Assembly (NCBI GenBank): GCA_002840835.1
Contig: PHCQ01000005.1
Span: 1-64,000 of the forward strand
Reading direction: 5' to 3'
From: Betaproteobacteria bacterium HGW-Betaproteobacteria-16
Lineage (GTDB): Bacteria > Pseudomonadota > Gammaproteobacteria > Burkholderiales > Burkholderiaceae_C
DNA length: 64,000 nucleotides
Below are positions 1,590 to 37,452 of the stretch, piece after piece. The position numbers and the translations under genes were made by a program. Positions within the stretch are counted from its first letter, which is position 1, and every line of letters starts with the position of its first letter. The notes under the pieces were generated by a model. It saw only the letters and a program-made list of their open reading frames with translations, was not told the DNA's origin and ran no database searches.

Positions 1590-1603
1590 TTGATCAAGCT
1601 CAA
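1590..1603 (+). promoter_or_regulatory. FNR/ANR-type box upstream of host-attachment gene
   Basis: TTGATCAAGCTCAA matches the TTGA-N6-TCAA half-site pattern of FNR/ANR/DNR regulators. Its centre (1596.5) is 63 bases before the ATG at 1660. A class II promoter would start near 1638, and GAAGAT at 1625-1630 is a weak -10 candidate. The binding site is seen; the regulator's identity and activity are inferred. Confidence 0.6.
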
Positions 1604-1659
1604 CGGTGGGCCCCAGGAGAGAGCGAAGATGGTTGCCCGCCTATTGAAAGGACACAGAC

Positions 1660-2100
1660 ATGAAACCACAATGGACTCTCGTCGCGAATGGCTCGCAGGC
1701 CCGCATCTTCAGCCGTGCTTCGTTGGCCGATCCGTTGGTCGCACTGGCCACGATCGACTTTCCCGAGGGCCGCCAGAAGGGCCGCGATCTCGAGCGCGAC
1801 CGGCAAGGGCACGAAAGCAGCGACCACAGCAGCGCAGCCACCCACTTCGAGCCCCATACCCCATTGCGCAAAAAGCTCCTGCACCAATTTGCCATGGAAC
1901 TGACGCAACGCCTGGAGGCTGGCCTGGCCGATGGCACCTACGGCTCCCTTTGGATCATCGCTTCAAGCGAACTCCTCGGTGAGCTCAAGGATGTGCTGAG
2001 CGAGGGCGTGGTCAGCCATCTGCAAAAAGCACATGCCGCAGACTTCACCGGCCTTGACATTGGCGAAATAGAAAGCCGCCTGCGCGGGATGCATCCGTAG
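1660..2100 (+). CDS. Host attachment (Hat) family protein
   Basis: A 146-residue protein of the family annotated as 'protein required for attachment to host cells'. The N-terminus WTLVANGSQARIFSR is the family's hallmark beta strand. It is followed by a charged loop rich in R, E, H and S (residues 36-70) and a C-terminal half with ASSELLGELKDVL, matching the (A)xPxxLGxLR segment. The fold resembles the eRF1/Pelota-type baeRF group. The family name comes from plant-associated bacteria, but the gene is widespread in free-living proteobacteria and its biochemical role is unknown. The start is supported by GAAAGGA seven bases before the ATG. The upstream FNR-type box suggests oxygen-responsive expression. 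Confidence 0.8.
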   Translation: MKPQWTLVANGSQARIFSRASLADPLVALATIDFPEGRQKGRDLERDRQGHESSDHSSAATHFEPHTPLRKKLLHQFAMELTQRLEAGLADGTYGSLWIIASSELLGELKDVLSEGVVSHLQKAHAADFTGLDIGEIESRLRGMHP

Positions 2101-2122
2101 GTGCACTGCGACAAGGTCGCGT

Positions 2123-2944
2123 TCAGTGCGACATGAGCACCGGCAAGGTCATCGTCTGAAGCACGGTGCGCGTGGCACCGCCCATGACCCATTCACGCGC
2201 GCGGCTGTGCCCGTAGCCGCCCATGACGAGCAGGTCGGCATCGACATCGGCAGCCATGGACAGCAGCACATTGCCGACGTCTTCCGGCTCTGGCCCGCCT
2301 GCATGGGGAACGATGCGGATGCCATGTGAGGACAACTGGCTCTCCAGCAACGCCAGGGCGTTGGCAGACCCGGTTCCCCAGCACGCCACATGGACGTGGC
2401 TCGCCTGCCTCAGCCACGGCAGTGCGGCTGTCACGGCGCGAGCCGCCTCCCTGGTCTCTTTCCAGGCGATCAGCACCTTTCCTCCCAGGGGATCGAACTG
2501 TCCGGTAAAGGGCAGGATGAGTGCCGGGCGCCCGCTGCGCACCAGTACATCGGACAGAAAATCGGGGGGCAGTTCGCCTGCGGCGGGGTCACTCGAATCG
2601 CGCTGTCCGAGGAGCATGAGGTCGGCGTAAAGCCCACGGGCGGCGAAGCCATGGGGTCCTTCCGGCAGCGGATCGGACCAGTGCAGTCGACTGGAACCGG
2701 TGCACTCGCGAAGAAAGGTCACGTGTGCCCGGTCCAGACACTCCTTGTCGTAGGCCAGCATGAATTCGGCGGCTGCGGATGCGCCTTCCCAGGTCGCCGG
2801 GAAACGCGTCATGCCGGGCAGCATGCAGGGTTGTGCCGTCACGTCGGCCGAGAAGGCCTCGGCCAACTGGCAGGCCAGCCAGATGCGCTGAACTGTGCGA
2901 GCTGTGTTGTCGATCTGAAGCAGGATGGATCGGGGGGCTTCCAT
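2123..2944 (-). CDS. Universal stress protein, tandem UspA domains
   Basis: A 273-residue protein with two UspA-type domains. The N-terminal one (about 5-135) is degenerate. The C-terminal one (about 150-273) keeps the strand KVLIAWKETREAARAV and the nucleotide-binding end DLLVMGGYGHSRAREWVMGG, close to the G-2X-G-9X-G(S/T) signature, so it may bind ATP. I chose the ATG at 2944 (MEAPRSILLQID) because the UspA fold starts there and GGGAG precedes it; an in-frame upstream extension to 3007 has no homology. The gene is divergent from the zinc alcohol dehydrogenase. Double-UspA proteins of this kind are typical oxygen-limitation survival proteins in Pseudomonas and Burkholderia; the role here is inferred from family and context. 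Confidence 0.87.
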   Translation of the reverse strand: MEAPRSILLQIDNTARTVQRIWLACQLAEAFSADVTAQPCMLPGMTRFPATWEGASAAAEFMLAYDKECLDRAHVTFLRECTGSSRLHWSDPLPEGPHGFAARGLYADLMLLGQRDSSDPAAGELPPDFLSDVLVRSGRPALILPFTGQFDPLGGKVLIAWKETREAARAVTAALPWLRQASHVHVACWGTGSANALALLESQLSSHGIRIVPHAGGPEPEDVGNVLLSMAADVDADLLVMGGYGHSRAREWVMGGATRTVLQTMTLPVLMSH

Positions 2945-3006
2945 GGATCTCCCAGGCATGTGAGGAAGGAATTCAGACAAGGTACTGCGCCATCGCCAAG
3001 AGTGCA

Positions 3007-3063
3007 TTGCGCAACCTCAACGCCGACGGCCATGGTTTTGCCGGAGGTGTTGCGCACGCTCAA
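3007..3063. promoter_or_regulatory. Two degenerate FNR-like palindromes between usp and adh
   Basis: The divergent usp/adh intergenic region holds TTGCGCAACCTCAA (3007-3020) and TTGCGCACGCTCAA (3050-3063). Both keep TTG...CTCAA but have CG in place of the A at the fourth position, so they are weaker matches to an FNR-type site than the exact copies elsewhere. The same TTGCG-N4-CTCAA variant occurs at 6745-6758. Confidence 0.3.
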
Positions 3064-3139
3064 GCGCCTGCTCGGCAACGCCCCCACACTGAGCGGCATG
3101 CCCATGCACCCACGCCCGAATCCACGCCCTTCTGAAAAC

Positions 3140-4126
3140 ATGCGTGCCATGGTCATGCACGCCGTTGGCCAGCCGTTGCGCCTGGAGGAGCGTCCCCTGC
3201 CCGAACCCGGGCCAGATGAGGTTCGCCTCCGTGTTGAAGCCTGCGCAGTGTGTCGCACCGATCTGCACATCGTCGATGGCGAACTGCCCTTGCCCCTTCT
3301 TCCGGTGGTGCCAGGGCATGAGATCGTGGGCATCATCGATCGTGTGGGCAGCGGCGTGAAAACCTTGCGGTGTGGGGATCGCGTGGGGGTACCCTGGCTG
3401 GCCCATACCTGCGGCCACTGCGACTACTGCGGGTCCGGCCGGGAGAATCTGTGCGACCAACCGGTGTTCACCGGCCACGGGCGCGACGGCGGTTTCGCCA
3501 CCCATGTGACCGCCGAGGCCGCCTTCTGCCTGCCGCTGGGACAGACCATGGATGCGGTGCACATGGCACCACTGATGTGTGCGGGCCTGATCGGCTGGCG
3601 ATCGCTGCGCATGGCCGGCGATGAAGCCCGGCGCATCGGCCTCTACGGATTCGGCGCGGCGGCCCATCTGGTGCTGCAGGTGGCCCGGCTTCAGGGGAGG
3701 GAAGTGCATGCCTTCACGCGTCCCGGCGACGTGCGCACACAGACCTTTGCGCGCGGCTTGGGCGCAACGTGGGCGGGAGGCTCCGATTCGGCGCCTGTGC
3801 GGCCCCTGGACGCTGCGATCATCTTCGCTCCGGTGGGCGACCTGGTACCGGCCGCACTGCGTGCGGTGCGCAAGGGTGGGCGCGTGGTGTGCGGAGGCAT
3901 CCACATGAGCGACATTCCCGGCTTTCCGTACCGCATCCTGTGGGAGGAGCGGCAGTTGTTGTCCGTGGCCAACCTGACGCGGGCCGACGCGACCGCCTTT
4001 CTGCATTTCGTGTCGGGGCGTTCGCTTCGCGTGGTGAGCACGCCCTATGCGCTTGAACAGGCGAACGAGGCGCTGGACGACCTGCGATCGGGCCGGCTAC
4101 AGGGCGCGGCTGTGCTCGTGCCCTGA
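3140..4126 (+). CDS. Zinc-dependent alcohol dehydrogenase (MDR family)
   Basis: A 328-residue medium-chain alcohol dehydrogenase. The N-terminal GroES-like domain carries the catalytic zinc ligand segment CAVCRTDLHIVDGEL and the GHEIVG histidine. The structural zinc loop CGHCDYCGSGRENLC has four cysteines. The Rossmann domain follows (IGLYGFGAAAHLVLQ), with a slightly unusual GFGAAA in place of GxGxxG. The frame extends far upstream of 3140, but family alignment begins at MRAMVMHAV, so that ATG was chosen; no strong ribosome site is visible. It should oxidise or reduce an alcohol/aldehyde pair with NAD(H). Its position beside a USP gene in a low-oxygen-type locus suggests fermentative redox balancing (inference). 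Confidence 0.87.
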   Translation: MRAMVMHAVGQPLRLEERPLPEPGPDEVRLRVEACAVCRTDLHIVDGELPLPLLPVVPGHEIVGIIDRVGSGVKTLRCGDRVGVPWLAHTCGHCDYCGSGRENLCDQPVFTGHGRDGGFATHVTAEAAFCLPLGQTMDAVHMAPLMCAGLIGWRSLRMAGDEARRIGLYGFGAAAHLVLQVARLQGREVHAFTRPGDVRTQTFARGLGATWAGGSDSAPVRPLDAAIIFAPVGDLVPAALRAVRKGGRVVCGGIHMSDIPGFPYRILWEERQLLSVANLTRADATAFLHFVSGRSLRVVSTPYALEQANEALDDLRSGRLQGAAVLVP

Positions 4127-4438: not shown

Positions 4439-6073
4439 TCACATGCCGGGCATGTAGGCATCTGCACCGCTTTCTTCGGTCCGCCCTTGCGGCTTTGGTG
4501 CGTTGGCGATCATGCAGTCTGTGGTGAGCACGAGCGCCGCAATGGAACCCGCATTCAACAGGGCCAGCCTTGTCACCTTGGCCGGATCGATCACACCCAT
4601 CTGCAGCATGTCGCCGTACGTCAATGTCGCAGCATTAAAGCCATGGTTGCGTTCGCCCGAGTCTTCCACACGTTGCACCACCACCGAGGGCTCCACACCG
4701 GCATTGGCTGCGATACAGCGCAATGGCTCCTCCAGCGCCTGCTCCACCAGGCGAATGCCGGAGTCGTGGTCGAGCGTGGGGCCGTGCAGCGACTGCAACA
4801 CCCAGCGTGACCTGAGCAATGCCACCCCGCCCCCCGGGACCACACCTTCTTCGATCGCTGCGCGCGTGGCGTGCAGGGCGTCCTCGACACGGACCTTGCG
4901 TTCCTTCAGTTCGGTTTCGGTGGCGGCACCGACCTTGATGAGTGCAACGCCGCCAGAGAGCTTGGCGATGCGTTCGTCCAGTTTCTCGCGGTCATAGTCC
5001 GAGGTGCATGTTTGTCGCTCGAGACGCAGGCTGGCCACACGATCCTGGATGTCCTTCGGCTGGCCGGCACCGCCAATGATGGTAGTTTCGTCCTTGCCCA
5101 CCACCACCCGCTTGGCGCGCCCCAGATCAGACAGCTGCAGTTTGGCCAACGACAGGCCAAGCTCGTCATTCACCACGCTGCCCCCGGTGAGCAAGGCCAT
5201 GTCCGCCAGCATGGCCTTGCGCCGATCGCCAAAGCCTGGCGCTTTGACCGCGCAGGCTTTCAAGGTGCCGCGCACGGTGTTGATGACCAGTGTGGCGAGT
5301 GCATCGCTGTCGATGTCTTCGGCCACCACCAGCAGCGGCTGACCACTTTTGACCACCTCCTCCAGCAAGGGCAGCAAGTCCTTGAGGGAGGACAGGCGCT
5401 TGTCACAAAGGAGGATCAGCACCTCGTCGAGCATTGCGGTCTGGCGCTCGGGGTTGTTGATGAAGTAGGGCGACAGGTAGCCTCGATCGAATTGCAGGCC
5501 CTCCACGGTTTCGAGCTCGCTGGTCAGGCCCGAGCCGTCTTCGATGGTGATCGCACCTTCGCGACCGACCTTGTCGATGGCCTTTGCCAGCAGTTCCCCA
5601 ATCGATCGGTCGTTGTTGGCCGATATGCTGGCCACGTGCGCGATTTCGGTGGCGTCGGCGCAGGGTCTGGCCATCTCGCGCAGCTCGCTCACCACCGCTT
5701 CGATGGCTTGTTCCATGCCGCGCTTGAGCTCCATCGCATTCATGCCGCCAGACAGGTACCGCAACCCGTGATGAATCATGGCGTGGGCCAGCACGGTGGC
5801 GGTGCTGGTGCCGTCGCCGGCCATGTCGCTGGTCCGCGAAGCCACCTCGCGCATGAGTTGTGCGCCCATGTTTTCGAAGCGGTCTTCAAGTTCGATCGAT
5901 TTCGCGACGATCACGCCCGAATTGACGATCTGTGGACCAGCGAAGTCGCGCTCCAGGATCACGGTACGGCCGCGTGGACCCAGCGTAAGCCGCACTGCAT
6001 CGGCCAGCACATCCACGCCCCTGCGCAGGCGTGCCCGCGCGTCTTCTCGGAACAGCAGTTGTCTGGCCGCCAT
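4439..6073 (-). CDS. groEL: Divergent GroEL (Hsp60) paralogue lacking Asp52
   Basis: A 544-residue group I chaperonin, collinear with E. coli GroEL without gaps at the N-terminus. Conserved elements include [11 protein letters not shown] (Asp87), [45 protein letters not shown] (Asp398) and GGGVALLR. Two departures stand out. The KDG loop reads VNSGVIVAK, so Asp52, which helps ATP hydrolysis in E. coli GroEL, is Ser. The C-terminal GGM repeat tail is replaced by GADAYMPGM. There is no groES next to it, and no CIRCE element is visible upstream. GAGGTG precedes the ATG. It is probably an accessory chaperonin that works with the main GroES or in mixed rings; whether it cycles normally is open. 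Confidence 0.9.
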
Positions 6074-6153: not shown

Positions 6154-6167
6154 TTGAGAATGAGCAA
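6154..6167 (-). promoter_or_regulatory. Near-match FNR-type box upstream of groEL-like gene
   Basis: TTGAGAATGAGCAA differs from TTGA-N6-TCAA at one base. Its centre is 87 bases before the groEL-like ATG. GAAACT on the minus strand (6131-6126) sits at the distance expected for a class II -10 element but is a weak hexamer. Confidence 0.35.
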
Positions 6168-6252: not shown

Positions 6253-6266
6253 TTGAGCGTGCTCAA
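6253..6266 (+). promoter_or_regulatory. FNR/ANR-type box, extended palindrome
   Basis: ATTGAGCGTGCTCAAT (6252-6267) is a 16-base inverted repeat containing an exact TTGA-N6-TCAA site. It lies between the divergent groEL-like and sHsp units and precedes a run of RNA hairpins that ends at 6490. Class II spacing would place a plus-strand start near 6301; the expected -10 (CACACT) is poor. It could instead serve the groEL-like gene from farther upstream. Confidence 0.55.
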
Positions 6267-6490: not shown

Positions 6491-6867
6491 CGTGGGGCAG
6501 TGGCAGCCGCCGCTTGAATGACGCCAGCACCCCGATGCCCCCAGGAAAACGCTCGAAATCATGCACCACCAAGGCGTGCGCGGTCTGCTCATCATGGTGA
6601 CGCCGCGAGGTGATCGGTCGCTCCAAAGGCCTGGACGACGCGATTTCGGTGACGGCCGCGCAGCTGGAAGAGAGGGCCTTCGTGACCGCACCGGAAGACC
6701 TGGCGCATAGCCTCGATCAACGGTGCCCGGGGAGTGCAACTGCATTGCGTTCACTCAATGGCGTCGGACTTTCACCGCCTCAATATGTTGTCTGCGCTGG
6801 CACTCCGTCGCTGGATGCTGCGGACCTGCCGGGCGACCCATTCCCACTGTTCAACAGGAGCATCACC
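6491..6867. other. Leader region of the sHsp pair, no recognised gene
   Basis: These 377 bases hold no gene I can identify. A TTGCGTTCACTCAA palindrome (6745-6758) resembles the degenerate FNR-like sites at 3007 and 3050 and lies 110 bases before the sHsp start. Frames around 6540-6720 show short protein-like patches that switch frame, possibly the remains of an old gene. Confidence 0.35.
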
Positions 6868-7296
6868 ATGAACGAACTTCGCACCCTGGACCCGTTTGCA
6901 CTTGATCCCCTCGACGACGCCTTTCGTTCACTCATGCGGCCGTGGCGATTCGAGGCGCCGGACGCCGCGCCCCGCATCAAGCTCGATCTCTCGGAGCAGA
7001 ACGGCAGCTACGCCGTGAAGGCCGAGATTCCCGGCGTGAAGAAAGACGACATCGACGTGCGAATCGACGGCAACGTGGTCACCATCAGCGCAGAAGTGAA
7101 ATCAGAGAAAGAGGAGAAGGGCAATGGTGGGCGCGTGCTGCGTCGTGAACGCCAGGAGGGCTACGCCAGCCGCACTTTCACGCTGGCCTGCCCGGTAGAC
7201 GAAGGGAAGGTCGAGGCCAGCTACAAGGACGGGATCCTGGCGCTGACGCTGCCCAAGAAGTCAGACCAGGCCAGTAAACGCATCGCGATCAAGTGA
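6868..7296 (+). CDS. Small heat-shock protein, Hsp20 family
   Basis: A 142-residue sHsp. A short N-terminal arm (1-40) is followed by an alpha-crystallin domain (about 45-132): IKLDLSEQNGSYAVKAEIPG, VKKDDIDVRIDGNVVTISAE, then EGYASRTFTLACPVDEGKVE and the A-x-x-x-(N/D)-G-(I/V)-L motif SYKDGILALTLPKK. The tail carries RIAIK, a candidate I-x-I oligomerisation motif. It is an ATP-independent holdase for unfolded cytosolic proteins. CAGGAG lies seven bases before the ATG; a longer upstream reading frame is ignored because homology starts here. It is followed after four bases by a second sHsp, indicating an operon. Confidence 0.93.
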   Translation: MNELRTLDPFALDPLDDAFRSLMRPWRFEAPDAAPRIKLDLSEQNGSYAVKAEIPGVKKDDIDVRIDGNVVTISAEVKSEKEEKGNGGRVLRRERQEGYASRTFTLACPVDEGKVEASYKDGILALTLPKKSDQASKRIAIK

Positions 7297-7300
7297 CGCC

Positions 7301-7765
7301 ATGAGCACCTTGATCGAACCCTGGCGTGAGGGCACACAACATGCATGGGCCTCGCTCGCACGAGGCTGGAGTGAGCTGCGACAGCACGTCGACGGGGTGC
7401 TCGCGCGCTTTATTCCCAGCAAGTCCGCCGACCGCCATGGAGGCGCCGGCGAAGGGCTGGTGGCCGCAGACCTGTGCGTCGAGGAAGACCGCATCATCGT
7501 CAGCATGGAGCTGCCCGGAACCCTCCAGGAGGAACTGGAGATCGACATCGATGGCGACCAGCTCACCGTGTCGGGCGAATGGCGCGTCGAGCAGGAAAGT
7601 GGCGATGGCACCTACCGCATCGTGCGTTGCGCCTACCGCCGCTTCCGGCGCAAGCTGACCCTGCCACACCAGATTGATCCCCATGGCAGCCACATCAACT
7701 ACCACAACGGCGTGTTGCGCATCAGCATGCCCCGCGCTGACCGTGGCCCTGATGTCGTTACGTGA
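7301..7765 (+). CDS. Second, divergent Hsp20-family protein
   Basis: A 154-residue protein with a longer N-terminal region (1-55, amphipathic) and an alpha-crystallin-like domain. It reads ADLCVEEDRIIVSMELPGTL, EELEIDIDGDQLTVSGEWRV, YRRFRRKLTLPHQIDPHG and INYHNGVLRISMPRA, where the last segment is the G-V-L motif. It lacks a clear C-terminal I-x-I tail. It starts four bases after the first sHsp stop and is probably translated from the same mRNA. Paired sHsps often form mixed oligomers; whether these two do is unknown. Confidence 0.88.
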   Translation: MSTLIEPWREGTQHAWASLARGWSELRQHVDGVLARFIPSKSADRHGGAGEGLVAADLCVEEDRIIVSMELPGTLQEELEIDIDGDQLTVSGEWRVEQESGDGTYRIVRCAYRRFRRKLTLPHQIDPHGSHINYHNGVLRISMPRADRGPDVVT

Positions 7766-7888: not shown

Positions 7889-8203
7889 ATGAACATCCGT
7901 CTCACCCTTGTCACAGGTATTTCTGCACTGCTCTTGCTCACCGCGTCCGGCTGCGCTGTGACACGTGGTCAAGAAACAGTCGGCGCGTTTGTTGACGACA
8001 CCGTCATCACGACCCAGATCAAGGCTCGCTTCGCCGAAGACAAAACGGTTGCCGCGACCAGCATCGGGGTCGAAACGCTCAATGGCACGGTCATGTTGTC
8101 AGGTTTCGCGAAGAGCCTCAAAGAAAAGGAAACCGCTGAAGCCATCGCGCGCAAAGTCAACGGTGTGAAGGCTGTGAAGAATGAAATTGCCGTCCGGCCT
8201 TGA
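7889..8203 (+). CDS. BON-domain lipoprotein
   Basis: A 104-residue envelope protein. An N-terminal signal ends in the lipobox LTASGC (Cys22), so it should be lipidated and sorted to the outer membrane or periplasm. One BON domain fills residues 35-104 (ITTQIKARFAEDKTV, VETLNGTVMLSGFAKS, KVNGVKAVKNEIAV). AAAGGAG lies nine bases upstream of the ATG. Single-BON lipoproteins of this size are typical of betaproteobacterial stress loci. They probably help membrane integrity, by analogy with OsmY and DolP. Confidence 0.9.
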   Translation: MNIRLTLVTGISALLLLTASGCAVTRGQETVGAFVDDTVITTQIKARFAEDKTVAATSIGVETLNGTVMLSGFAKSLKEKETAEAIARKVNGVKAVKNEIAVRP

Positions 8204-8247
8204 GCCGTGCAGCCATTGTTTTGTACGTCCACTGAAAGGAAATTCAA

Positions 8248-8469
8248 ATGAACTGGGATCGCATCAAAGGAAACTGGAAGCAAGTCACGGGCAAGGTCAA
8301 GTCTGAGTGGGGCAAGCTCACCGATGACGATCTGGATGTCGTTGCCGGTCACCGCGACCAACTCGCCGGCAAGATTCAGGAGCGCTACGGCATAGCCAAG
8401 GACGAGGCTGAGAAGCAACTGGCCGCGTGGGAGCGAAAGGCAACCGACTCCTGGTTCACGAAGGGATAG
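8248..8469 (+). CDS. CsbD family stress protein
   Basis: A 73-residue hydrophilic protein. Its start MNWDRIKGNWKQVTGKVKS, then WGKLTDDDLDVVAGHRDQLAGK, is the canonical CsbD signature; the C-terminal half (EAEKQLAAWERKATDSW) is also family-typical. CsbD proteins are general-stress-induced and have no known enzymatic activity. AAAGGAA lies upstream of the ATG. The gene follows the BON lipoprotein by 44 bases and may be cotranscribed with it. Confidence 0.93.
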   Translation: MNWDRIKGNWKQVTGKVKSEWGKLTDDDLDVVAGHRDQLAGKIQERYGIAKDEAEKQLAAWERKATDSWFTKG

Positions 8470-9000: not shown

Positions 9001-9221
9001 CGCGCTCCAGCGAATCGTCCAGGCCCGGCGCGACTGACCGGTCGGACGGCTGGCGTAACTCCTCGACCAGGGTCCGCAGAATCCCGAGCAGGCGCTGCCC
9101 GGCCTCCTCACCTTCCGTTGGCGAAGCATCGGCAGCAGCAGTTTCGCTCATCGAAGCGTTGACCATCCCTGCATTGCAGCGCAAGTGAAGTGGATCAAGG
9201 TTGAGAGGTGTCAATGACCGG
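9001..9221. repeat. 221 bp direct repeat, copy A (truncated acyl-ligase 5' end plus promoter)
   Basis: This segment aligns without gaps to 19016-19236, with about 15 mismatches by my count. On the minus strand it encodes the first ~50 residues of the acyl-AMP ligase's carrier domain (SETAAADASPTEGEE, LRTLVEELRQPSDR, GLDDSLERG) and then stops being homologous exactly at 9001. It therefore carries the promoter and start of a gene whose body is absent here. Confidence 0.8.
9201..9214 (-). promoter_or_regulatory. FNR/ANR-type box in repeat copy A
   Basis: TTGAGAGGTGTCAA is an exact TTGA-N6-TCAA site centred at 9207.5. On the minus strand TGCAAT (9178-9173) is exactly at class II -10 spacing, giving a start near 9166. 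The promoter now has only the truncated acyl-ligase start behind it. Confidence 0.5.
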
Positions 9222-9449: not shown

Positions 9450-11474
9450 CTACCTGGCGTTCTTGCCCGGCTTGACGAGCACCTGCGTGGTGTAACTGGC
9501 GTCGATGCCGTCGACCGTCTGGCCGTCAACGATGACGCTGGCACGCCACTCCACCGTTGCCGGCGTCCTCGGGTCGGCGAGCCTGGCGGTCCAGCGGAAG
9601 CTGAACTTCCGCTTGCCGCCGGCGCGCAACTCACTGAACGCGGCCCGGAACTCGCTGCCATCGGTGCCTGTCAGCAAGACCTCGCCGGTGGCGGGTGCCG
9701 CAGCCTGCTTGTCGTTGGCGATGCTCAGCATCAGCGTCCGCGACTGGCCGTCCAGCACAGTCGTCGGGACCGCCAGGTTGGTGATCGACACGTCTGACAG
9801 GATCGGCACCGGCGCGCCCTGTGCCGTCGTGCTCGCCGTCCTCACCGTGCTCGCGGAAGCGTCGGTGTACGACATCGTGACGACAGTGCCTGGCAAGACG
9901 TTGCTGTAGGCGTCAGGCAGGATGGCTGCGAACACGCCACGATTCGGGCCCTGCTCAACCAGCGTGAGGTTGTCCTGCAGGCCACTGCTCGTGCTGATCC
10001 TGACGGTCACCGCTTCCGCAACCAGCGGATCCGTGTTCAGGTCCTTGTCACCGACGCGGGCCGTCAGCAAGCCGCCTATCGCGAAGGTGGGCTGAGGGTC
10101 CAACCGCACTGCGCCAACGGAACTCGAGTACACCAGCAGCGGATTGGGCTGCACCCCAACAAACATGGGCGCTGGGCTTCCGGAGGTATCGGCCGCCGGC
10201 GTCACGCGGATCGTGAAGGTGTTGTTGGCCGTGGTCGGGAAGGTTGCCACGTCGCCGATGCGCACCACGTAATTCAGGCCGACGTTGACCAGATCGTCAA
10301 TCACGCCCGAGGTATACGAGAGGTTCGCACCCATCGCCTGGATCTCGGTAGCCGGAATCGCCGCGAACGACTCCCGTGCTCCGCGCATCCAGCCCAAGCC
10401 GCCTGTCGCCGGGTTGTAGCCATACCAGGCCACCAGCGCCGCATCGGTGTCGGGATTGCCGTCGTCGTCGAAGAAGATGCCGGTGGGCAGCATGCTGTTG
10501 GGTAACCAGGGCCCGAACTGTGCTGAGGCGGCGCCGATGCCCGTCGGCACGTTGGGGTAGTCACTGGGCAGCGGCCGCGTGGCAGTGAGCGTGTCGGTCA
10601 GCGGCTGGTCGCCCGCCACGTACTCGTCGATGTAGAAGCCGGCGCGTGTGTCCGGGTCGAAGAAGCCGACCTCGCCGGTGTGTTTGTCCACCGGCCCGAA
10701 CAACCCGGCTGAGAAGGTGGCGAGTTGCGTCGGGCTCCACAGATTCGATGGCACAGCGATGTTCAGATGTTCCGTTGCGCCGACTGCGCTGGCGCGCTGG
10801 AAGGCGTCGCCGACACCGAAGCCGACTTCGACCTTGAAGCCCGCCAGGCGCCTGCCGGTCCAGTTGTTGATCTTCTGGTACATCTCATAGGTGCGCTCCC
10901 CGGCTTCGGGCGCGACGTTGAACACGAGGTCGATACTTTCGGAGCCCTGGCCATCCACCGTGGAGGGCAACATCGCCACCTTGAAGCGCTTGTGGGTCTG
11001 GAACGGGCTGCTACAGACCACCTGCCTCGGCTCTGCCGAATCCAGGTAATGGTCCTTCAGGTAGGACGTCGCCATGATGCAGTTGGCGGGCTTGTCCTGC
11101 TTGGCGTTTGGGTCGTCGTTGACGATCTTGATGCCTGCGGGCTCGCCCACTGGCCAGTCTTTGGCCAGCACGATGCCCATCATCGTCCCGATGCGGTCGA
11201 ACATGTTGGCCTGGTAGGTGAAGTCAGAGTCGGAGCCGAATAGGTAGGCGCCCGTCACCGGGTCGAACCGGCTGCCCGTGCCGTTCAGCAGCACCTTCAC
11301 GTTGCCGAGGTTCCAGCCGCCGAAGCCCGGCGCACCGGACGCGGAAGGCACCGAGATGATCTTCCCTGCGTAAGCGGACCCCGCCAGTCCGAGGATGGCT
11401 GCCGCCAACACGCTGCTGGTCCAGCGCCGAACGTTGCCCGTGTGTCGCGTCGTGTCTTGATTCTTCTTGGTCAC
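9450..11474 (-). CDS. Large secreted protein, choice-of-anchor-F-like
   Basis: A 674-residue exported protein. GTG at 11474 is preferred because AGGAG precedes it by eight bases and a typical signal peptide follows (basic TRHTGNVRR, hydrophobic SSVLAAAILGLAGSAYA, cleavage after AYA). The mature start GAPGFGGWNLGNVKVLLNGT and internal patches such as GIFFDDDGNPDTDAALVAWY and FDPDTRAGFYIDEY resemble the 'choice-of-anchor F' extracellular family. The C-terminal third (from about 480) looks like beta-sandwich domains with ARVGDKDLNTDP and GPNRGVFAA. I see no C-terminal sorting motif or transmembrane anchor. Function unknown; a surface or matrix role is possible. It lies behind an FNR-type promoter and a small secreted-peptide frame. 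Confidence 0.65.
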   Translation of the reverse strand: MTKKNQDTTRHTGNVRRWTSSVLAAAILGLAGSAYAGKIISVPSASGAPGFGGWNLGNVKVLLNGTGSRFDPVTGAYLFGSDSDFTYQANMFDRIGTMMGIVLAKDWPVGEPAGIKIVNDDPNAKQDKPANCIMATSYLKDHYLDSAEPRQVVCSSPFQTHKRFKVAMLPSTVDGQGSESIDLVFNVAPEAGERTYEMYQKINNWTGRRLAGFKVEVGFGVGDAFQRASAVGATEHLNIAVPSNLWSPTQLATFSAGLFGPVDKHTGEVGFFDPDTRAGFYIDEYVAGDQPLTDTLTATRPLPSDYPNVPTGIGAASAQFGPWLPNSMLPTGIFFDDDGNPDTDAALVAWYGYNPATGGLGWMRGARESFAAIPATEIQAMGANLSYTSGVIDDLVNVGLNYVVRIGDVATFPTTANNTFTIRVTPAADTSGSPAPMFVGVQPNPLLVYSSSVGAVRLDPQPTFAIGGLLTARVGDKDLNTDPLVAEAVTVRISTSSGLQDNLTLVEQGPNRGVFAAILPDAYSNVLPGTVVTMSYTDASASTVRTASTTAQGAPVPILSDVSITNLAVPTTVLDGQSRTLMLSIANDKQAAAPATGEVLLTGTDGSEFRAAFSELRAGGKRKFSFRWTARLADPRTPATVEWRASVIVDGQTVDGIDASYTTQVLVKPGKNAR

Positions 11475-11682: not shown

Positions 11683-11758
11683 GGTTCGCACAGGGAATTC
11701 GTGCGAACCTGCAGTCATGCTAGAACCCACGCCATCTGGACCCATTGAGGCCGCTCAA
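11683..11758 (-). promoter_or_regulatory. FNR-type class II promoter with 5' stem-loop
   Basis: Reading the minus strand: TTGAGGCCGCTCAA (11758-11745), then TAGCAT (11722-11717) at exactly class II -10 spacing, predicting a start at 11710. Immediately after it comes a perfect 9 bp hairpin GGTTCGCAC / GTGCGAACC (11709-11701 and 11691-11683, 9-base loop). A hairpin at the very 5' end commonly protects mRNA from decay. The rest of 11475-11953 holds only the small secreted-peptide frame. Confidence 0.6.
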
Positions 11759-11953: not shown

Positions 11954-13774
11954 TTATTCTTCATGGGGCCTGGCTCTTCTGGATCGTGCCCTCATGATCC
12001 CGGATTCGCCGGGCATGTCGTGCACGTAGGTACCCGGTGCGGGCACGGGGCGTCCGTTCAATTGCAGGCCCATCACCGGCCGAGCCTTGACGCGTCGTGA
12101 GGACTGTGTAGCCAGCCAGCTTTGCCAGTGTGGCCACCAGGAGCCCGCGTGGACCTGTGCTTTCGCGTGCCATGCCATCGGGTCGACGGGCGCTTGCCGC
12201 GCCACCCAGTGGCCGATCCGGTAGCCTGCTTCAGGATGGGCCATGGGGCCGGTGGGCGGGTTGACAATGCCGACATTGTGCCCACCGCTGCTCAGCACGA
12301 ACTGGGCAGGCGTCTGGGTCAGCCGCAGGATCTGGTAGACCGAGGTCCAGGGCGAGACGTGATCGCGTTCCGTTGCCACCACGTAAAGTGGCGCGCGTAT
12401 GGCGTCCAGGTGAACCGGCTCTCCTTTCACACGGTAGCGTCCCTCTGCCAGATCGTTGTGCAGGTACAGGCGGCGCAGGTATTCGCTGTGCATGCGTGCG
12501 GGCAGGCGCGTGGCATCGGCGTTCCAGGCGCGCAGCGGCGTCACAGGCGTGTGTGCCCCCATCAGGTATTCGTGCACCAGCTTGGACCAAACCAGATCTT
12601 TGGAGTTGATCAGTTGGAAGGCACCCGCCATGCGTTGGCCGTCCAGGTAGCCGTGTTCGGCCATCACGTCTTCCAGAAAGGCGATCTGGCTTTCGTCGAT
12701 GAACAGGCCCAGTTCACCTGGTTCCTGAAAGTCCACCTGAGCCGCCAACAGCGACACGCTCTTGAACGGGTGTTCGCCCCGCGCGCCGAGCAGCGCGGCT
12801 GCCATGGCCAACAGCGTGCCACCCAGGCAGTAGCCGGTGGCGTGCACGCCCGTGCCCGGGCAGCGCTCCTGCACCGCGTGTATCGCGTCCAGCACGCCAT
12901 GCTGAAGGTAGTCATCCATACCGAGCGCCGCGTCCCCGCTGTCGGGGTTGCGCCAGGAAACCATGAACACCGTGTGTCCCTGGGCAACGAGGTGGCGCAC
13001 CAGCGAGTCTTCGGGCGTGAGGTCGAGGATATAGAACTTCATGATCCACGACGGCACGATCAGCACCGGCTCGCGGTACACCGTGGGCGTGGCAGGCTCG
13101 TACTGGATCAGCTCGATCAGGTGGTTGCGCATCACCACCTTGCCGGGTGTGAGTGCCAGTTCGCGACCGGGCGCAAAGGCCTCAAGACCGCGTGCCTTGC
13201 CATCCGTGGCCACCGCGAGCGCGTCACGTGCCAGATTGTTGACGCCGTTGACGAGGTTCGTACCACCCGTGCGCATCGTTTCCTGCAGCACCTGCGGATT
13301 GGTGAGGGGGAAATTGGACGGAGAGAGCATGTCCAGCCACTGTCGCGCCATGAATGCCGTGACCTCCTGATGGTGGCGCGAAACGCCGCGCACGCCCTGT
13401 GTGGCCTCGGCCCACCATTGCTGCTGCAGCAGGAACCCCTGAGCCAGCGCGTTGAACGGCAACGCCTGCCATTCGGGCCGGCTGAACCGTTTGTCCTGCG
13501 GCGCGGGTGTCACGCAGTCCTCGCAGCGCCCCAGCGAGACGCCCCAGAGGTAATGCAGCCAGGACTGTGTCTTGTGCACACCGCTGGCGAACAGTTCAGA
13601 CTGTTTGGTTGGTGAAACCAGCAGGTGAAGCCACCAGTCCGTGGACGCCATGGCGAGCGAGGCAGGCGACAGGCCGTTGGCCATGCGGGCCAGCCACAGC
13701 TTGAGCGGCACATCGATGGGCGGTGGTCCGTGCGGAGGGGCAGGGGATGGGTCAGATGTGGTGGGTCGGTGCAT
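11954..13774 (-). CDS. phaC: Class I polyhydroxyalkanoate synthase
   Basis: A 606-residue PHA synthase that polymerises (R)-3-hydroxyacyl-CoA at the surface of PHA granules. An N-terminal domain (about 1-230) includes the PhaC_N block NPQVLQETMRTGGTNLVNG. The alpha/beta-hydrolase core carries the lipase-like box GYCLGG with nucleophile Cys316, the aspartate segment ATERDHVSPW and the histidine segment SSGGHNVGIVNPP. The length fits class I, so no PhaE or PhaR partner is needed. The ATG at 13774 (MHRPTTSD) was chosen; an in-frame ATG at 13924 with AGGAAG upstream is an alternative that would add 50 unconserved residues and run through the FNR-type sites. It is divergent from the phasin gene. 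Confidence 0.92.
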   Translation of the reverse strand: MHRPTTSDPSPAPPHGPPPIDVPLKLWLARMANGLSPASLAMASTDWWLHLLVSPTKQSELFASGVHKTQSWLHYLWGVSLGRCEDCVTPAPQDKRFSRPEWQALPFNALAQGFLLQQQWWAEATQGVRGVSRHHQEVTAFMARQWLDMLSPSNFPLTNPQVLQETMRTGGTNLVNGVNNLARDALAVATDGKARGLEAFAPGRELALTPGKVVMRNHLIELIQYEPATPTVYREPVLIVPSWIMKFYILDLTPEDSLVRHLVAQGHTVFMVSWRNPDSGDAALGMDDYLQHGVLDAIHAVQERCPGTGVHATGYCLGGTLLAMAAALLGARGEHPFKSVSLLAAQVDFQEPGELGLFIDESQIAFLEDVMAEHGYLDGQRMAGAFQLINSKDLVWSKLVHEYLMGAHTPVTPLRAWNADATRLPARMHSEYLRRLYLHNDLAEGRYRVKGEPVHLDAIRAPLYVVATERDHVSPWTSVYQILRLTQTPAQFVLSSGGHNVGIVNPPTGPMAHPEAGYRIGHWVARQAPVDPMAWHAKAQVHAGSWWPHWQSWLATQSSRRVKARPVMGLQLNGRPVPAPGTYVHDMPGESGIMRARSRRARPHEE

Positions 13775-13807
13775 GCCGCCATGTTCCGGCACACGCCGCA
13801 GGACCCC

Positions 13808-13875: not shown

Positions 13876-13951
13876 CGCCAGAGACGGCGCTCACCTCCAT
13901 CATGATCAATTGCACCACCTTCATTCACTTCCTGACGAAAAGGACACGACC

Positions 13952-16300: not shown

Positions 16301-16315
16301 CCGTTGGAAGGAGAT

Positions 16316-24811: not shown

Positions 24812-27532
24812 TCAGGACGTCATCGCCTTGTGTTTCAGCGCCAGGCGGATCTGCTTCTCGGATTCAAGCAGCGCGAAGAGCGCCACACCGACGCCCACGA
24901 TCAGCACTCCGTCCCAGAAGGGCACAGATTCTGTGACAAAGATGCCCTGCAGCACCGGCAGGTACGTGATGGCGAACTGCGCCACCACCACGGCCAGAAC
25001 CGTGGCCCAGACCGTGGGCGTGCCGCGAACGGCCTGCCAAGTGAGCGAGGTGCCGTAGATGTTGCGGATGAAAAACAGGTGGAAAACCTCCAGCACCACC
25101 ATCGTGTTCAGCGCGATCGTGCGCGCCAGGTCCAGCGAATAGCCGCGATCCACCGCGTAGGCGTACATGCCATACACCCCACCCAGAAACAGCAGCGACA
25201 CCAACACGATGTGCCAAACGAGTTCACCCGAGAGCAGCGGCTCGTTCCTGCGACGGGGTGCGCGGCGCATGGTGCCTGCCTCGGTGGGCTCGAAAGCCAG
25301 CGCCATGCCCAGCGTGATTGCGGTGATCAGATTGATCCAGAGAATCTGCACCGGCGTGATCGGCAACGCCAGCCCGAAAAGCAGTGCCACCACGATCGTC
25401 ATGGCCTCACCAGCGTTGGTCGGCAGCGTCCAGCTGATGACCTTCTTGATGTTGTCGTAAACCGTTCGCCCTTCTCGCACGGCCGCGACGATGGAGGCGA
25501 AATTGTCGTCCGCAAGGACCAATTCCGCAGCTTCCTTGGCGGCTTCGCTGCCTTTGAGCCCCATCGCGATGCCGGCGTCGGCCCGCTTGAGCGCGGGTGC
25601 GTCGTTCACGCCGTCCCCGGTCATGGCCACCGTCATGCCGTGGGACTGCAAGGCCATCACCAGCCGCAGCTTGTGTTCCGGACTGGCACGGGCAAAGATG
25701 TCGGTCTCGACCACCGCTGCAGCGAGCGCTGTCTCGTCCATGGCATCGAGGTCTGCCCCGGTCAGCACGCTGTCCGGGTTCTGCAAGCCGATTTGCCGAC
25801 CGATGGCTGCAGCGGTGCCTTTGTGGTCACCGGTGATCATCTTGACGCGGATGCCCGCGCCTCGGCACTCGGCCACCGCTTCTGCCGCTTCGGCGCGTGG
25901 TGGGTCGATCAGCCCCACCAGCCCGAGCAAGACCAGTGGGCCACCCACGTCGGCAAACGCGAGCAGGGTGTGTTCTGCAGCGACTTGCCTGACCGCGAAA
26001 GCGAGGACCCGCTGCCCTTGCGCAGCGATGCGTTCGGCCTCCTCTTGCCAATGGGCCAAGTCCAACGGTTCAGTGCCCCCGCTGTGGCCACGTTGCTGTA
26101 CGCACATTGTCAGGATCTGCTCCGGTGCACCCTTCACCGAAATCAGCGCATGGCCTTCGTGGTCGTGGTTCAGGCTGGCCATGAAGCGGTGCCGGGCGTC
26201 GAAGGGAATCGCATCGGTGCGCGTCCAGGCGGCCAGTTCTTGCCGCGCCTCCAGACCACACTTGCCCGACAGGGCCAGCAGCGCACCTTCCATCGGGTCG
26301 CCCTCGACCGTCCAGGCTCCGTCGCGCTCCAACAGTGAGGCGTCGTTGCACAGAGCGGCTGCGCGCGCCAGTTCCTCCAGGATGGGGTACTCCTGCCCGT
26401 TGACCGGGTGGTCATCAAGCCGGATCGTTCCTCGCGGCTCATAGCCAGTGCCATCGATAGAAAAGTGATGCGCGCTGGTGGCCACCGAGGCGGCCATCAT
26501 CTCGTTGCGGGTCAGGGTGCCTGTCTTGTCGGTGCAGATCACCGATACCGAGCCCAGGGTCTCGATCGCCGGGAGGCGGCGAACGATGGCGTTCCGGCGC
26601 GCCATGGCCTGCACACCCACCGCGAGAGTGATTGTCAACACCGCGGGCAAACCCTCTGGAATGGCTGCAACCGACAGGCCCACCACCGCCATGAAAATGT
26701 CGCCAAACGCGAAGTGACCCACGAAGTAGCCGAAGGCAAGCAACAAGGCGGCGATCAGAAGAATGAGCACGGTCAACCAGCGTGCGAAGATGTTCATCTG
26801 ATTGATCAGCGGCGTGGTCATCGTCTCGACCCGTGACATCATGTCACTGATGCGCCCGATCTCGGTTTCGGCGCCCGTGCCCACCACCACACCACGACCT
26901 GCGCCGCAGGTGATCAGCGTGCCGCTGTAGGCCATGCACATCCGGTCGCCGATGGCGGCCTCGGCGGCCACGGCCTGGGTTCGCTTTTCGATGGGCATCG
27001 ACTCGCCCGTCAGCAGTGCCTCCTGGATCTGCAGGTTGAGCGTCTGGATCAGCCGCAGGTCGGCGGGCACCTTGTCGCCCGCCTCCAGCAGAACCACGTC
27101 GCCAGGCACCAACGCCTCGCCATCGACCGAGCGGCGATCGCCGTCGCGCAGCACCGCCGCGCGCGGCGCGAGCATGCGGCGGATCGCAGCCATGGCCTTT
27201 TCCGCTTTGCCCTCCTGAACGAAACCGATCACCGCATTCCCGAGCACCACCGCCAGGATGACCAGGGTGTCGACGATATGCCCCAGCGCGGCGGTGACCA
27301 CTGCCGATCCCAGCAGCACGTAGATCAGGATGTTGTGGAAGTGCAGCAGGAACCGCAGCCAGGCGCTGCGCTGTGGTGGCTCGGGCAGCCGGTTGGGGCC
27401 TTGTTCCTGGAGGCGAGCGTCTGCCTCAGCTTGGGTGAGCCCGCCCGTCGACGTTCGGGCCAGATCCAAGGCAGCCTCGGAAGCCAGCGCGTGCCATGGA
27501 CATGGTGCTTGAATTTCCGACTCTGATCGCAT
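24812..27532 (-). CDS. P-type cation-transporting ATPase (P2-like)
   Basis: A 906-residue P-type ATPase. A cation-transporter N domain (LTQAEADARLQEQGPNRLPE) and the actuator motif LLTGESMPIEK are followed by the M4 motif VAAIPEGLPAVL, the phosphorylation site DKTGTLT (Asp335) and the nucleotide site KGAPEQIL. The hinge reads MTGDGVNDAPALK, and the M5/M6 ligands are ISWTLPTNAGEAMTI and QILWINLITAITLG. PEGLP with NAGE and N-L-I-T-A fits calcium- or sodium/potassium-type P2 pumps; the ion is not determined. The C-terminal transmembrane bundle is complete. A weak ribosome site precedes ATG 27532. Similar pumps accompany USP, sHsp and PHA genes in other proteobacterial low-oxygen loci. Confidence 0.9.
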   Translation of the reverse strand: MRSESEIQAPCPWHALASEAALDLARTSTGGLTQAEADARLQEQGPNRLPEPPQRSAWLRFLLHFHNILIYVLLGSAVVTAALGHIVDTLVILAVVLGNAVIGFVQEGKAEKAMAAIRRMLAPRAAVLRDGDRRSVDGEALVPGDVVLLEAGDKVPADLRLIQTLNLQIQEALLTGESMPIEKRTQAVAAEAAIGDRMCMAYSGTLITCGAGRGVVVGTGAETEIGRISDMMSRVETMTTPLINQMNIFARWLTVLILLIAALLLAFGYFVGHFAFGDIFMAVVGLSVAAIPEGLPAVLTITLAVGVQAMARRNAIVRRLPAIETLGSVSVICTDKTGTLTRNEMMAASVATSAHHFSIDGTGYEPRGTIRLDDHPVNGQEYPILEELARAAALCNDASLLERDGAWTVEGDPMEGALLALSGKCGLEARQELAAWTRTDAIPFDARHRFMASLNHDHEGHALISVKGAPEQILTMCVQQRGHSGGTEPLDLAHWQEEAERIAAQGQRVLAFAVRQVAAEHTLLAFADVGGPLVLLGLVGLIDPPRAEAAEAVAECRGAGIRVKMITGDHKGTAAAIGRQIGLQNPDSVLTGADLDAMDETALAAAVVETDIFARASPEHKLRLVMALQSHGMTVAMTGDGVNDAPALKRADAGIAMGLKGSEAAKEAAELVLADDNFASIVAAVREGRTVYDNIKKVISWTLPTNAGEAMTIVVALLFGLALPITPVQILWINLITAITLGMALAFEPTEAGTMRRAPRRRNEPLLSGELVWHIVLVSLLFLGGVYGMYAYAVDRGYSLDLARTIALNTMVVLEVFHLFFIRNIYGTSLTWQAVRGTPTVWATVLAVVVAQFAITYLPVLQGIFVTESVPFWDGVLIVGVGVALFALLESEKQIRLALKHKAMTS

Positions 27533-33830: not shown

Positions 33831-33839
33831 AGAGCCAGT

Positions 33840-36800: not shown

Positions 36801-37001
36801 TGGGGCGCGGCCGATGGCAGCTTCCGATCGCCCATGGCGGTGGCCGTGATTGGCGGCCTGATGACCTCCACCGTTCTGAGCCTGCTGGTGATACCGGCGG
36901 TGTTCACGCTGGTGGATGATGTGTCGCTATGGTTCGGCCGGCTGTTTGGCCGCAGGTCTGACCCCGCGGTTGTCGCCCACCCGGCGCCGTCGGCCAGCTA
37001 G
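33840..37001 (+). CDS. RND efflux inner-membrane transporter (AcrB/MexB-like)
   Basis: A 1053-residue proton-driven RND pump. TM1 (IPAAMLFVMLTLAGLFSFKQ) is followed by the porter domain PGASPNQLENDVARIIE. The central TM block has the proton relay segment SLVIGILVDDAIVEVENIVR (two Asp), and the second half begins at WITMIGAGMFFVGSLMLI. The C-terminal TM block holds IGLIMLMGVATKNSILLVEY and ARPIVMTTIAMGAGMLPIA. Family and length fit the HAE1 class that exports drugs, solvents or organic acids rather than metals. GGGGAGAG precedes the ATG. Together with the two upstream genes it forms a full three-part pump with no adjacent regulator. Confidence 0.93.
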   Translation: MNVSAWSIRNPIPAAMLFVMLTLAGLFSFKQMKVQNFPDLDVPNITVLATLPGASPNQLENDVARIIENGLASLQGLKHIYTKVQDGTVSITAEFVIEKNTQEALDDVRSAVAKVRGDLPTDLREPIINKIELAGGAVLAYTVASDKMDAENLSWFVDNDIAKLLLSVRGVGAINRVGGVDREVQVLLDPLKLQALNTTAADISRQLAKVQIESAGGRVDLGGSQQPLRTLSSLRSAEEISRLELSLSDGRSIRLDQIADIKDTVAEPMAAAFLDGKPVVGFEVARSKGASEIEVGDGVRAKLKTLQEARPDLRITESFDFVTPVKEEFDGSMTLLYEGAILAVLVVWLFLRDFRATVVSAVALPLSAIPAFIGMHYMGFTINVVTLLAMSLVIGILVDDAIVEVENIVRHMRMGKTPYQASMEAADEIGLAVIATTFTLIAVFLPTAFMSGIPGKFFKQFGWTASFAVFASLVVARALTPMMAAYLLKPVVMAKDMPNWARSNRVAGGVWRWMTNQEEPAWLNTYQGWAAWCIRHRWITMIGAGMFFVGSLMLIPLLPQGFIPADDNSQTQVYIELPPGTTLQQTIDTAERARLLVAAVPHVRSVYTTIGSGSAGSDPFAPQGAAESRKAALTIQLDARGTRPRKQVIENQLREAMSNLPGVRSKVGLGGSGEKYILTLTGNDAASMQTAATAVERDLRTIAGVGSIQSTAALVRTEISVTPDLARAAEMGVTSSAIAETLRIATVGDYDNALPKMNLPQRQIPIVVKLDASARHDLQTLERLAVPGSKGPVMLGQVATLTFGGGPAVIDRYDRARNINFEVELAGIALGDMKTAVEKLPSLRNLPAGVSVLEIGDAEVQGELFASFGLAMLTGVLCIYIVLVLLFKAFLHPVTILAALPLSLGGAFVALLLTGKSFSMPSLIGLIMLMGVATKNSILLVEYAIEARREHGMNRLDAILDACHKRARPIVMTTIAMGAGMLPIAIGWGAADGSFRSPMAVAVIGGLMTSTVLSLLVIPAVFTLVDDVSLWFGRLFGRRSDPAVVAHPAPSAS

Positions 37002-37004
37002 CCG

Positions 37005-37382
37005 TCACTCGCGAACGAGGTGCCAGAGATTCCTGTTGAGACCATCGCCACCTTTGTCGCCAGCCTTGTCGTTGTAGAAGGTGTACAAAGGCCTACCCTT
37101 GTAGGCCCACTGCTTGCTGCCGTCCTGGCGGACCACCACTGAATAATCACCCGAGACGGTATCCGTGGTTTTCACAAGATACGGCGGGAAGATATTGCTG
37201 CATGGCGCATTGCAGACACTCTTGCCAGAGCCGGCGACATCATTGTCAAAGGTGTACAAAGCGAGGCGCGTCTCTGTAAAAAGAACACCCTGTTCGAACA
37301 TCGGCTGTGAGATGGCGGCTACGTGGCCAAACGCAAGGGCCGTGAACAGTGTGGCGGCAGACAGGTATCGCTTGTTGCGCAT
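37005..37382 (-). CDS. Small secreted repeat protein (COG4315 type)
   Basis: A 125-residue exported protein: signal peptide MRNKRYLSAATLFTALAFGHVAA, then two copies of the secreted repeat with RLALYTFDNDVAGSGKSVCN and RPLYTFYNDKAGDKGGDG; the family motif is LYTF(D/Y)xDxxGxxxC. CNAPCSNIFPPYL supplies a conserved cysteine pair. The function is unknown; relatives are often made under stress or with ECF sigma factors, as for the paralogue at 57624. AGGAG lies five to eight bases before the ATG. The FNR-type box at 37439 is at class II distance. Confidence 0.85.
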   Translation of the reverse strand: MRNKRYLSAATLFTALAFGHVAAISQPMFEQGVLFTETRLALYTFDNDVAGSGKSVCNAPCSNIFPPYLVKTTDTVSGDYSVVVRQDGSKQWAYKGRPLYTFYNDKAGDKGGDGLNRNLWHLVRE

Positions 37383-37438
37383 GGTGAACTCCTGGCCTGG
37401 ACTGTCAGTGAGTTTGAGCGCTGCGGTGGAGAGATCGC

Positions 37439-37452
37439 TTGAGATTTGTCAA
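37439..37452 (-). promoter_or_regulatory. FNR/ANR-type box upstream of the secreted repeat gene
   Basis: TTGAGATTTGTCAA is an exact TTGA-N6-TCAA site. On the minus strand CAAACT (37416-37411) is at class II -10 spacing and predicts a start at 37404, 22 bases before the ATG, with AGGAG inside that leader. Confidence 0.55.

Follow-up and report, generated by a model that had tools for sequence, protein, structure and literature searches.

Why do so many copies of the palindrome TTGA-N6-TCAA crowd into one end of a contig of Betaproteobacteria bacterium HGW-Betaproteobacteria-16, and which regulator reads them? The stretch in question is the first 64,000 nucleotides of contig PHCQ01000005.1 (hereafter the window; it is the start of C172, 134 kb, in our numbering of contigs), from a genome of 5,792,885 bases in 232 contigs. 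A preliminary description of the window, made from its sequence, took these boxes for FNR/ANR sites marking a local low-oxygen regulon. Our analysis points instead to a relative of FNR: the region at 1-28 kb is probably a hypoxia-induced island of stress and persistence genes under a dedicated FixK-like Crp/Fnr activator, apparently encoded just to the left of the window. We also infer that the cluster may be one switchable module, as that description had suggested.

An exact pattern search of the window returned all ten sites of the preliminary description, each precisely where it had been placed (1590, 6253, 9201, 11745, 13808, 13862, 19216, 23243, 23375, and 37439), and an eleventh that it had overlooked, at 58658, inside an ECF sigma-factor gene (58091-58696). 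The whole genome holds 96 such sites (32 for the reversed pattern, used as a control), which gives an expectation of 1.06 per 64 kb and P(≥11) ~2e-8. The 21.8 kb from 1590 to 23388 hold 9 sites versus 0.36 expected (P ~2e-10), neither probability being corrected for scanning. The ~0.2 sites initially expected per 64 kb were thus too few, but the excess is real. Dinucleotide shuffles of the window gave a mean of 0.43 sites and a maximum of 2, nineteen stretches of this genome, each of 20 kb, carry 5 sites in 380 kb, and the following 60 kb of the contig contain a single one. A matrix built from 75 sites of relatives, with this genome excluded, produced 15 matches scoring at least 12 in the first 40 kb of the window where 707 kb of the same genome gave 1.36 per 40 kb, a conservative comparison because some of the control stretches were fetched for holding sites. 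These matches are nine of the ten boxes, four new intergenic ones (3007, 3050, 6154, and 6745), and two intragenic ones (21272 and 26763). Whether it is compared with the genome average, as had been proposed, with shuffles, or with control stretches, the window is far denser in sites, and the matrix scan agrees. This confirms that the local cluster of boxes over the stress/persistence island is real.

Could a few boxes have been multiplied by repeats in a favourable base composition? The pair 9201/19216 fits this idea: the segment 8994-9221 is a 92% direct-repeat copy of 19009-19236 (228 bases) that carries the promoter and first codons of the acyl-ligase gene, so these two boxes are not independent. 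Part of the phasin gene also recurs at 19235-19333, as an 87% copy, and all these repeats are signs of local duplication and decay. Yet there is only one such pair among repeats of at least 40 bases in 1-40 kb, no shuffle exceeded two sites per window, and the positions of the boxes are conserved across species (see below). We regard this explanation as extremely improbable: the genome-wide count, the control stretches, the matrix scan, and the positional conservation led us to reject a chance origin, and we rejected spread by repeats for all but the 9201/19216 pair.

All sites had been described as lying in intergenic or promoter DNA. Mechanical gene calls place three of them (13808, 13862, and 23375) inside genes, because the over-long 5′ ends of the phaC and lipoprotein gene calls cover these positions. 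The locations of the domains and of the signal peptide indicate likely starts near 13774 for phaC and near 23459 for the lipoprotein gene, which would put the three sites back in promoter DNA. For 9201, the gene calls show no intact gene downstream.

The evidence that sets these boxes apart from those of FNR comes from relatives (genomes are designated by G numbers). We located homologous gene groups through the second GroEL of the island (GroEL2) among 146 other genomes and read ~30-40 kb for each. This revealed eight copies of GroEL2, 71-88% identical, in seven genomes; the eighth (G115, from another genus, 71% identical) was left out of the counts of base 5. The seven same-genus clusters, fetched by the position of groEL2 alone, contain 14 TTGA-N6-TCAA boxes in which base 5 is G in 23 of the 28 half-sites, versus 26 of 100 in the sites of the present genome outside the window (50 listed of 85; p = 1e-7). 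The ten boxes of the window have G at this position in 11 half-sites, C in 6, and T in 3. In the same genome, the boxes before the FNR-type targets hemN/fnr, ccoN, and ccoI (we assigned the names hemN, ccoN, and ccoI by inspecting the translations) are TTGATGTTGATCAA, TTGACTTACGTCAA, and TTGACCTAGGTCAA, respectively; they have the form TTGAT/C...A/GTCAA, unlike the palindrome of the island. The FNR/ANR pattern TTGAT/C-N4-A/GTCAA does not describe the window's boxes overall: the two best are TTGAGC..GCTCAA, while 13862 and 19216 do fit it. The preliminary description was right about a local cluster of FNR-superfamily boxes with class II geometry, but the best-conserved ones belong to a distinct palindrome, ATTGAGC-N2-GCTCAAT, separate from the FNR-type boxes of the genome. 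A search of 67 genomes of the genus for TTGAGCNNGCTCAA returned further loci, in which many boxes precede groEL2, hsp20, host-attachment, BON, usp, lipoprotein, and ftsH genes. Loci fetched by this pattern are not independent evidence for the palindrome; the outer bases around the relatives' boxes, which were not selected, are A at -1 and T at +14 in 54% of the cases each.

One could argue that FNR/ANR itself binds and activates all the boxes and that the differences at bases 5 and 6 are tolerated variation, which was the initial view. The genome does encode a bona fide FNR (C154:2802-3521, 238 bits with the NCBIfam Fnr model for a cut-off of 228), with cysteines and an E-x-x-S-R helix, and several boxes of the window (13862, 19216) are FNR-like. 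A stress island from another family (G063), encoding groEL, an acyl ligase, hsp20, and a P-type ATPase, has 8 mostly FNR-type boxes in 40 kb (base 5 of the half-sites: C 9, T 5, G 1, A 1), and the best matches of its genome to the regulator described below are only 34% identical. Since this island lacks a close regulator, such islands are perhaps read directly by FNR-type proteins, and so may be the six weaker boxes of the window. Within the genus, however, the boxes of the clusters differ from those of hemN/fnr, ccoN, and ccoI, and motif density tracks a paralogue of FNR whose gene apparently adjoins the island. We thus find it unlikely that FNR accounts for all the boxes.

In part, the boxes occupy similar positions before the same genes in relatives. 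In the window, TTGATCAAGCTCAA (1590-1603, matrix score 20.0) lies 63-64 bp before the host-attachment protein gene (1660-2100, plus strand), and six of the ten homologues in relatives have boxes 62-72 bp upstream. The groEL2 gene (4439-6073, minus strand) is preceded at 186 bp by TTGAGCGTGCTCAA (6253-6266, score 27.4), which has the full consensus and both flanking bases, and at 87 bp by a degenerate box (6154-6167, score 12.9). Boxes at 83-92 bp are found in 7 of 12 homologues; G098 has a pair at 186 and 84 bp, the distal one thus being placed as in the window, and other relatives have the distal box at 111-180 bp. The degenerate boxes TTGCGCAACCTCAA (3007-3020, score 13.5) and TTGCGCACGCTCAA (3050-3063, score 15.3) lie 69 and 112 bp before the universal stress protein gene usp (2123-2944, minus strand), where relatives have boxes at 70-71 bp in three cases out of three and at 109 and 141 bp in two out of three. 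Another degenerate box, TTGCGTTCACTCAA (6745-6758, score 15.6), is 116 bp before the two hsp20 genes (6868-7296 and 7301-7765, plus strand), and boxes almost identical to it stand at 109-114 bp in G001 (two copies), G024, G010, and G098. All four degenerate boxes thus have counterparts at similar positions before usp, groEL2, and hsp20 in relatives. The 17-kDa surface-lipoprotein-like gene (glycine zipper; 23459-23929, plus strand, from its likely start) has TTGAGCATGCTCAA (23375-23388, score 24.2) at 78 bp, and three of its seven homologues (G024, G014, and G093) have boxes at 77-78 bp. The ftsH-type protease gene (14468-16300, plus strand) lacks a box 5′ of the window copy; two of five relatives have one at 126-127 bp.

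The distance between box and promoter is also constrained. Four -10-like hexamers had been pointed out in the window, and they are where they were said to be, each 22 bases from its box: TAGCAT at 11722 for TTGAGGCCGCTCAA (11745-11758, minus strand, score 21.6), TGCAAT at 19193 for TTGACCGGCGTCAA (19216-19229, minus strand, score 11.7), CATCAT at 13898, towards phaP, for TTGATGCGGGTCAA (13862-13875, score 12.1), and the one at 9178 for TTGAGAGGTGTCAA (9201-9214, score 13.0), the box of the duplicated promoter fragment that no intact gene follows. In addition, TTGACATGGCTCAA (23243-23256, score 15.2) has a -10-like TATGTT 21 bases on, towards htrA. When the box centre is set to -41.5 in 116 oriented flanks, the clearest downstream information, bases touching the box aside, is at -12 to -7. 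Among 110 flanks of relatives, matches to TATAAT at four or more of its six positions occur in 13 at a gap of 21 and in 10 at a gap of 22, versus a mean of 0.45 flanks of 110 at control gaps (8-17 and 28-59). Judging from these alignments, the spacing is that of a class II activator. The two remaining boxes are TTGAGCCACATCAA (13808-13821, score 13.3), between phaC and phaP, and TTGAGATTTGTCAA (37439-37452, score 12.0), 64 bp before a Lipoprotein_15 gene (37005-37382); the latter stands apart from the island and may be an FNR-type box.

By matrix score, the ten boxes fall into two sets, four of at least 20 (1590, 6253, 11745, and 23375) and six between 11.7 and 15.2 (9201, 13808, 13862, 19216, 23243, and 37439). 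Such a split is what one would see in a mixed, two-tier regulon, in which the FixK-like paralogue would read the GC-type boxes and FNR the T/C-type ones (9201/19216, 13862, 37439, and perhaps 13808 and 23243). Overlap is frequent between regulators that recognize the TTGA core. On the other hand, the low scorers may also belong to the paralogue, as weak sites. The mixed regulon, which is compatible with control of the island by a dedicated activator, is a serious possibility to which we give somewhat less than an even chance.

Which protein would read the palindrome? In this genome, 25 Crp/Fnr proteins exceed the Pfam cut-off, and we viewed the recognition helix of all of them but one (on C130, where there is only a GntR-like frame). 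An E-x-x-S-R helix is found in FNR, in Crp/Vfr-like proteins (C196 and C182), in a protein on C213, and in a paralogue with an ETVSR helix at C183:18576-19517. In the alignment of the 18 members of this last family, the sole cysteine column conserved in at least 90% of the sequences is that of the motif FDALC, and there are no N-terminal cysteines for an Fe-S cluster. These members come from 18 of the 67 genomes of the genus, which have 50 sites matching the palindrome (0.60/Mb) versus 23 in the other 49 (0.12/Mb, p = 2e-6, uncorrected for kinship); the reversed pattern shows no difference in density. In 11 of the 18 genomes (G040, G035, G093, G084, G015, G010, G001, G017, G098, G089, and G090), the regulator is within ~8 kb of GC-type boxes and genes of these kinds. 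The stretch around the regulator lacks exact GC-type boxes in G024, G014, G008, G085, G088, and G038. A phmmer search of the PDB with the regulator matched FNR with 81 bits and FixK2 with 35 bits, and NCBIfam gave 94 bits for the Fnr model (cut-off 228) and 56 bits for the Caulobacter-type FixK model (cut-off 300). By the former search, it is closer to FNR than to FixK2, and we found no orthology to rhizobial FixK. In a tree of 31 rows, the eight FNR-type rows form one group (100/100), including G052, which lacks N-terminal cysteines, and the order of branching within the regulator rows is for the most part unresolved.

The locus of the regulator resembles a sensory cascade. On C183, its gene is divergent from a PAS-PAS histidine kinase gene (16787-18373), followed by a response-regulator gene (15950-16651); domains in the relatives' copies identify a HisKA_3 kinase and a LuxR-type (FixJ/NarL-type) receiver protein. 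The first PAS domain of the kinase matches the structures of FixL and DosP, and one histidine aligns with the heme ligand of FixL. The linked kinase is thus a putative oxygen-sensing, FixL-like heme-PAS kinase. The aligned upstream regions of the eight most similar regulators have an FNR-like box at a common position; it is exact in seven and has one mismatch in this genome. Below it there are conserved TAGGAAT / TTCC / GGGAATC repeats (GGAAT-type), which are possible candidate sites of the linked response regulator.

Several observations connect this locus with the window. C183 stops 355 bases past the regulator, inside a CMAS-type methyltransferase gene, and the window opens with the 3′ part of such a gene (3-803, plus strand), truncated by the contig start. 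Residues 1-107 of the 416-residue homologue in G024 correspond to the end of C183 and residues 147-405 to the first gene of the window, in the same orientation; the genome carries two further CMAS copies, on C133 and C161. This CMAS gene also follows the regulator in G024 and G014. Because one CMAS gene appears split over the end of C183 and the start of the window, and given the gene order in these two genomes, the regulator locus most likely adjoins the left end of the window with a gap of ~100 bases.

Taken together, these elements suggest the following scenario. When oxygen falls, FNR, through the box before the activator gene, and/or the FixLJ-like pair would raise the level of the activator. 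The latter would bind ATTGAGC-N2-GCTCAAT centred near -41.5 and recruit RNA polymerase at the promoters of groEL2, hsp20, usp, and the host-attachment and lipoprotein genes, and probably also at those of the secreted-protein, phaC/phaP, acyl-ligase, and htrA genes. We hold, with little better than even confidence, a more general proposition: that proteins of the FDALC type form a hitherto unnamed family of Crp/Fnr activators that lacks the cysteine cluster and has its own palindrome, that they integrate FNR and a heme-PAS pair to run the adjoining island, and that their operator code has drifted from that of respiratory FNR targets.

A number of results weigh against control by a dedicated activator or against parts of this scenario. 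The assembly is rated 100% complete and 6.26% contaminated, and contamination bears on the adjacency of the two contigs, whose ends show no overlap of at least 12 bases. The canonical TTGATN4ATCAA is also slightly denser in regulator-bearing genomes (2.1 versus 1.6/Mb, p = 0.02), so lifestyle or kinship may explain part of why motif and regulator occur together. Of the 18 genomes of the genus with the regulator, nine hold only 0-1 exact sites. Four genomes outside the genus with 48-51% identical regulators show no enrichment of the motif (0, 0, 0, and 1 exact TTGAGCNNGCTCAA), and G063, which has no close regulator, has three (none for the reversed control). These four regulators all adjoin a kinase/receiver pair (recognized by eye in G325 and G076), three are near ftsH, hsp20, or groEL, and one of the genomes has ATTGCGCATGCTCAAT before hsp20 near the regulator. 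G115 has no box near groEL2, and its stretch holds one FNR-type box elsewhere. Among the ten regulators other than the eight with the FNR-like box, eight lack an FNR-type box at that position even when one mismatch is allowed, G008 has one with a single mismatch, and the position could not be assigned in G038. The Crp/Fnr protein on C213, with its helix LKLETVSR, is a further E-x-x-S-R protein of this genome. Finally, the six weaker boxes of the window are too weak to assign, and FNR may use them.

The Pfam scan delimits the island at 1-28 kb and gives the following order of gene kinds. After CMAS come a BON protein, the host-attachment protein (PF10116/PF18856; baeRF-type), the universal stress protein, a zinc alcohol dehydrogenase (3032-4126, plus strand, start uncertain), GroEL2 (~60% identical to the groEL product of the same genome on C158), the two Hsp20, a BON-domain and a CsbD gene (7889-8469, plus strand), and a predicted secreted protein without Pfam match (9450-11474, minus strand). 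These are followed by a PhaC-type polymerase (11954-13924, minus strand, in the mechanical call), a phasin (phaP, 13952-14419, plus strand), FtsH, an acyl-ligase/acyltransferase fusion (16316-19126, minus strand, 936-residue frame), a PAS-domain histidine kinase (19409-21640, minus strand), and an HtrA/DegP-type protease (21693-23075, minus strand). The island ends with the 17-kDa lipoprotein, a flavodoxin fragment, and a cation-transporting P-type ATPase (24812-27469, minus strand), which marks its edge. The flavodoxin-like gene (24043-24767) is apparently split into two frames. The acyl-ligase gene at first looked frame-shifted, an idea that we dropped because its open frame runs for 948 codons. 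Past the island, the genes are of different kinds and include an RND efflux set as well as a NorD/NorQ/NorB/NorC-like block (38179-43377), with no exact TTGA-N6-TCAA box found upstream of norC.

Two genes of the island have peculiar relatives. Part of ftsH (14498-16044) has 77.7% DNA identity to ftsH on plasmids of Escherichia, Klebsiella, and Salmonella, and it may be the ftsH of the mobile heat-resistance locus. In a single scan, the secreted protein had 60-68% identical relatives only in Thiohalobacter, Malonomonas, and one Burkholderiales metagenome-assembled genome; their loci hold 1, 1, and 0 TTGA-N6-TCAA boxes in the three genomes. This patchy spread suggests that the gene was perhaps transferred; the plasmid search gave no match for it.

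If control by the dedicated activator is correct, there would be a definite master switch for a hypoxia-survival island that includes chaperones, polyhydroxybutyrate synthesis, universal stress, and envelope proteases. A stress regulon of the FixK2 kind would have been rebuilt around a different regulator and operator code, and the whole regulon could be predicted in related genomes from a 16-base motif.

The resemblance to published low-oxygen loci noted in the preliminary description is borne out by the excerpts available to us, with the difference that the closest known system found appears, by analogy, to be the FixK2 regulon of Bradyrhizobium rather than one in Burkholderia. In the available part of PMC9104804, the FixK2-box genes of B. 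diazoefficiens that are down in the fixK2 mutant include groEL5 (-150), hspC2/Hsp20 (-86), and genes for a universal stress protein (-72), a host attachment protein (-69), and phaC2 (-81), and the FixK2 consensus TTGA/C-N6-T/GCAA also admits the TTGC half-sites found in the present boxes. As in what is available on FixLJ-FixK2 of that species, a Crp/Fnr activator is here linked with a PAS kinase pair, oxygen sensing being a prediction in our case. Unlike FixK2, the present regulator is nearer to FNR (81 versus 35 bits), and its palindrome is sharper, with GC at bases 5-6. The kinase domain also differs: it is HisKA in FixL and HisKA_3 here. With the FNR/ANR regulon, the present system shares the TTGA-N6-TCAA core, the class II spacing, and the E-x-x-S-R recognition helix, but the strong boxes have GC instead of T/C at bases 5-6, and the regulator lacks the N-terminal C-x2-C-x5-C.

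In Burkholderia cenocepacia, the excerpts of PMC6127331 and PMC5234846 describe the lxa locus as a cluster induced by low oxygen that encodes universal stress proteins and an alpha-crystallin, and report that FixLJ drives fixK under low oxygen, the FixK named there being BCAM0049. We regard this system (see also the accessible parts of PMC9733578 and PMC3759415) as a looser parallel, for which only gene kinds were compared. Among the B. cenocepacia proteins listed as matches to our regulator, the best one, which may be a protein other than BCAM0049, has FNR-type cysteines and falls in the FNR group of the tree. The FnrL-Dnr cascade of Dinoroseobacter shibae, as far as covered by the excerpts of PMC5398030, similarly has an FNR protein with an Fe-S cluster that stands over further Crp/Fnr regulators; the paralogues and targets differ. 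Within the open-licence PMC literature, of which parts were available, we found no prior description of the regulator or of the exact motif. In summary, the present system may be best seen as a variant of the FixLJ-FixK kind of cascade, whose regulator would work like FixK while not being FixK by sequence.

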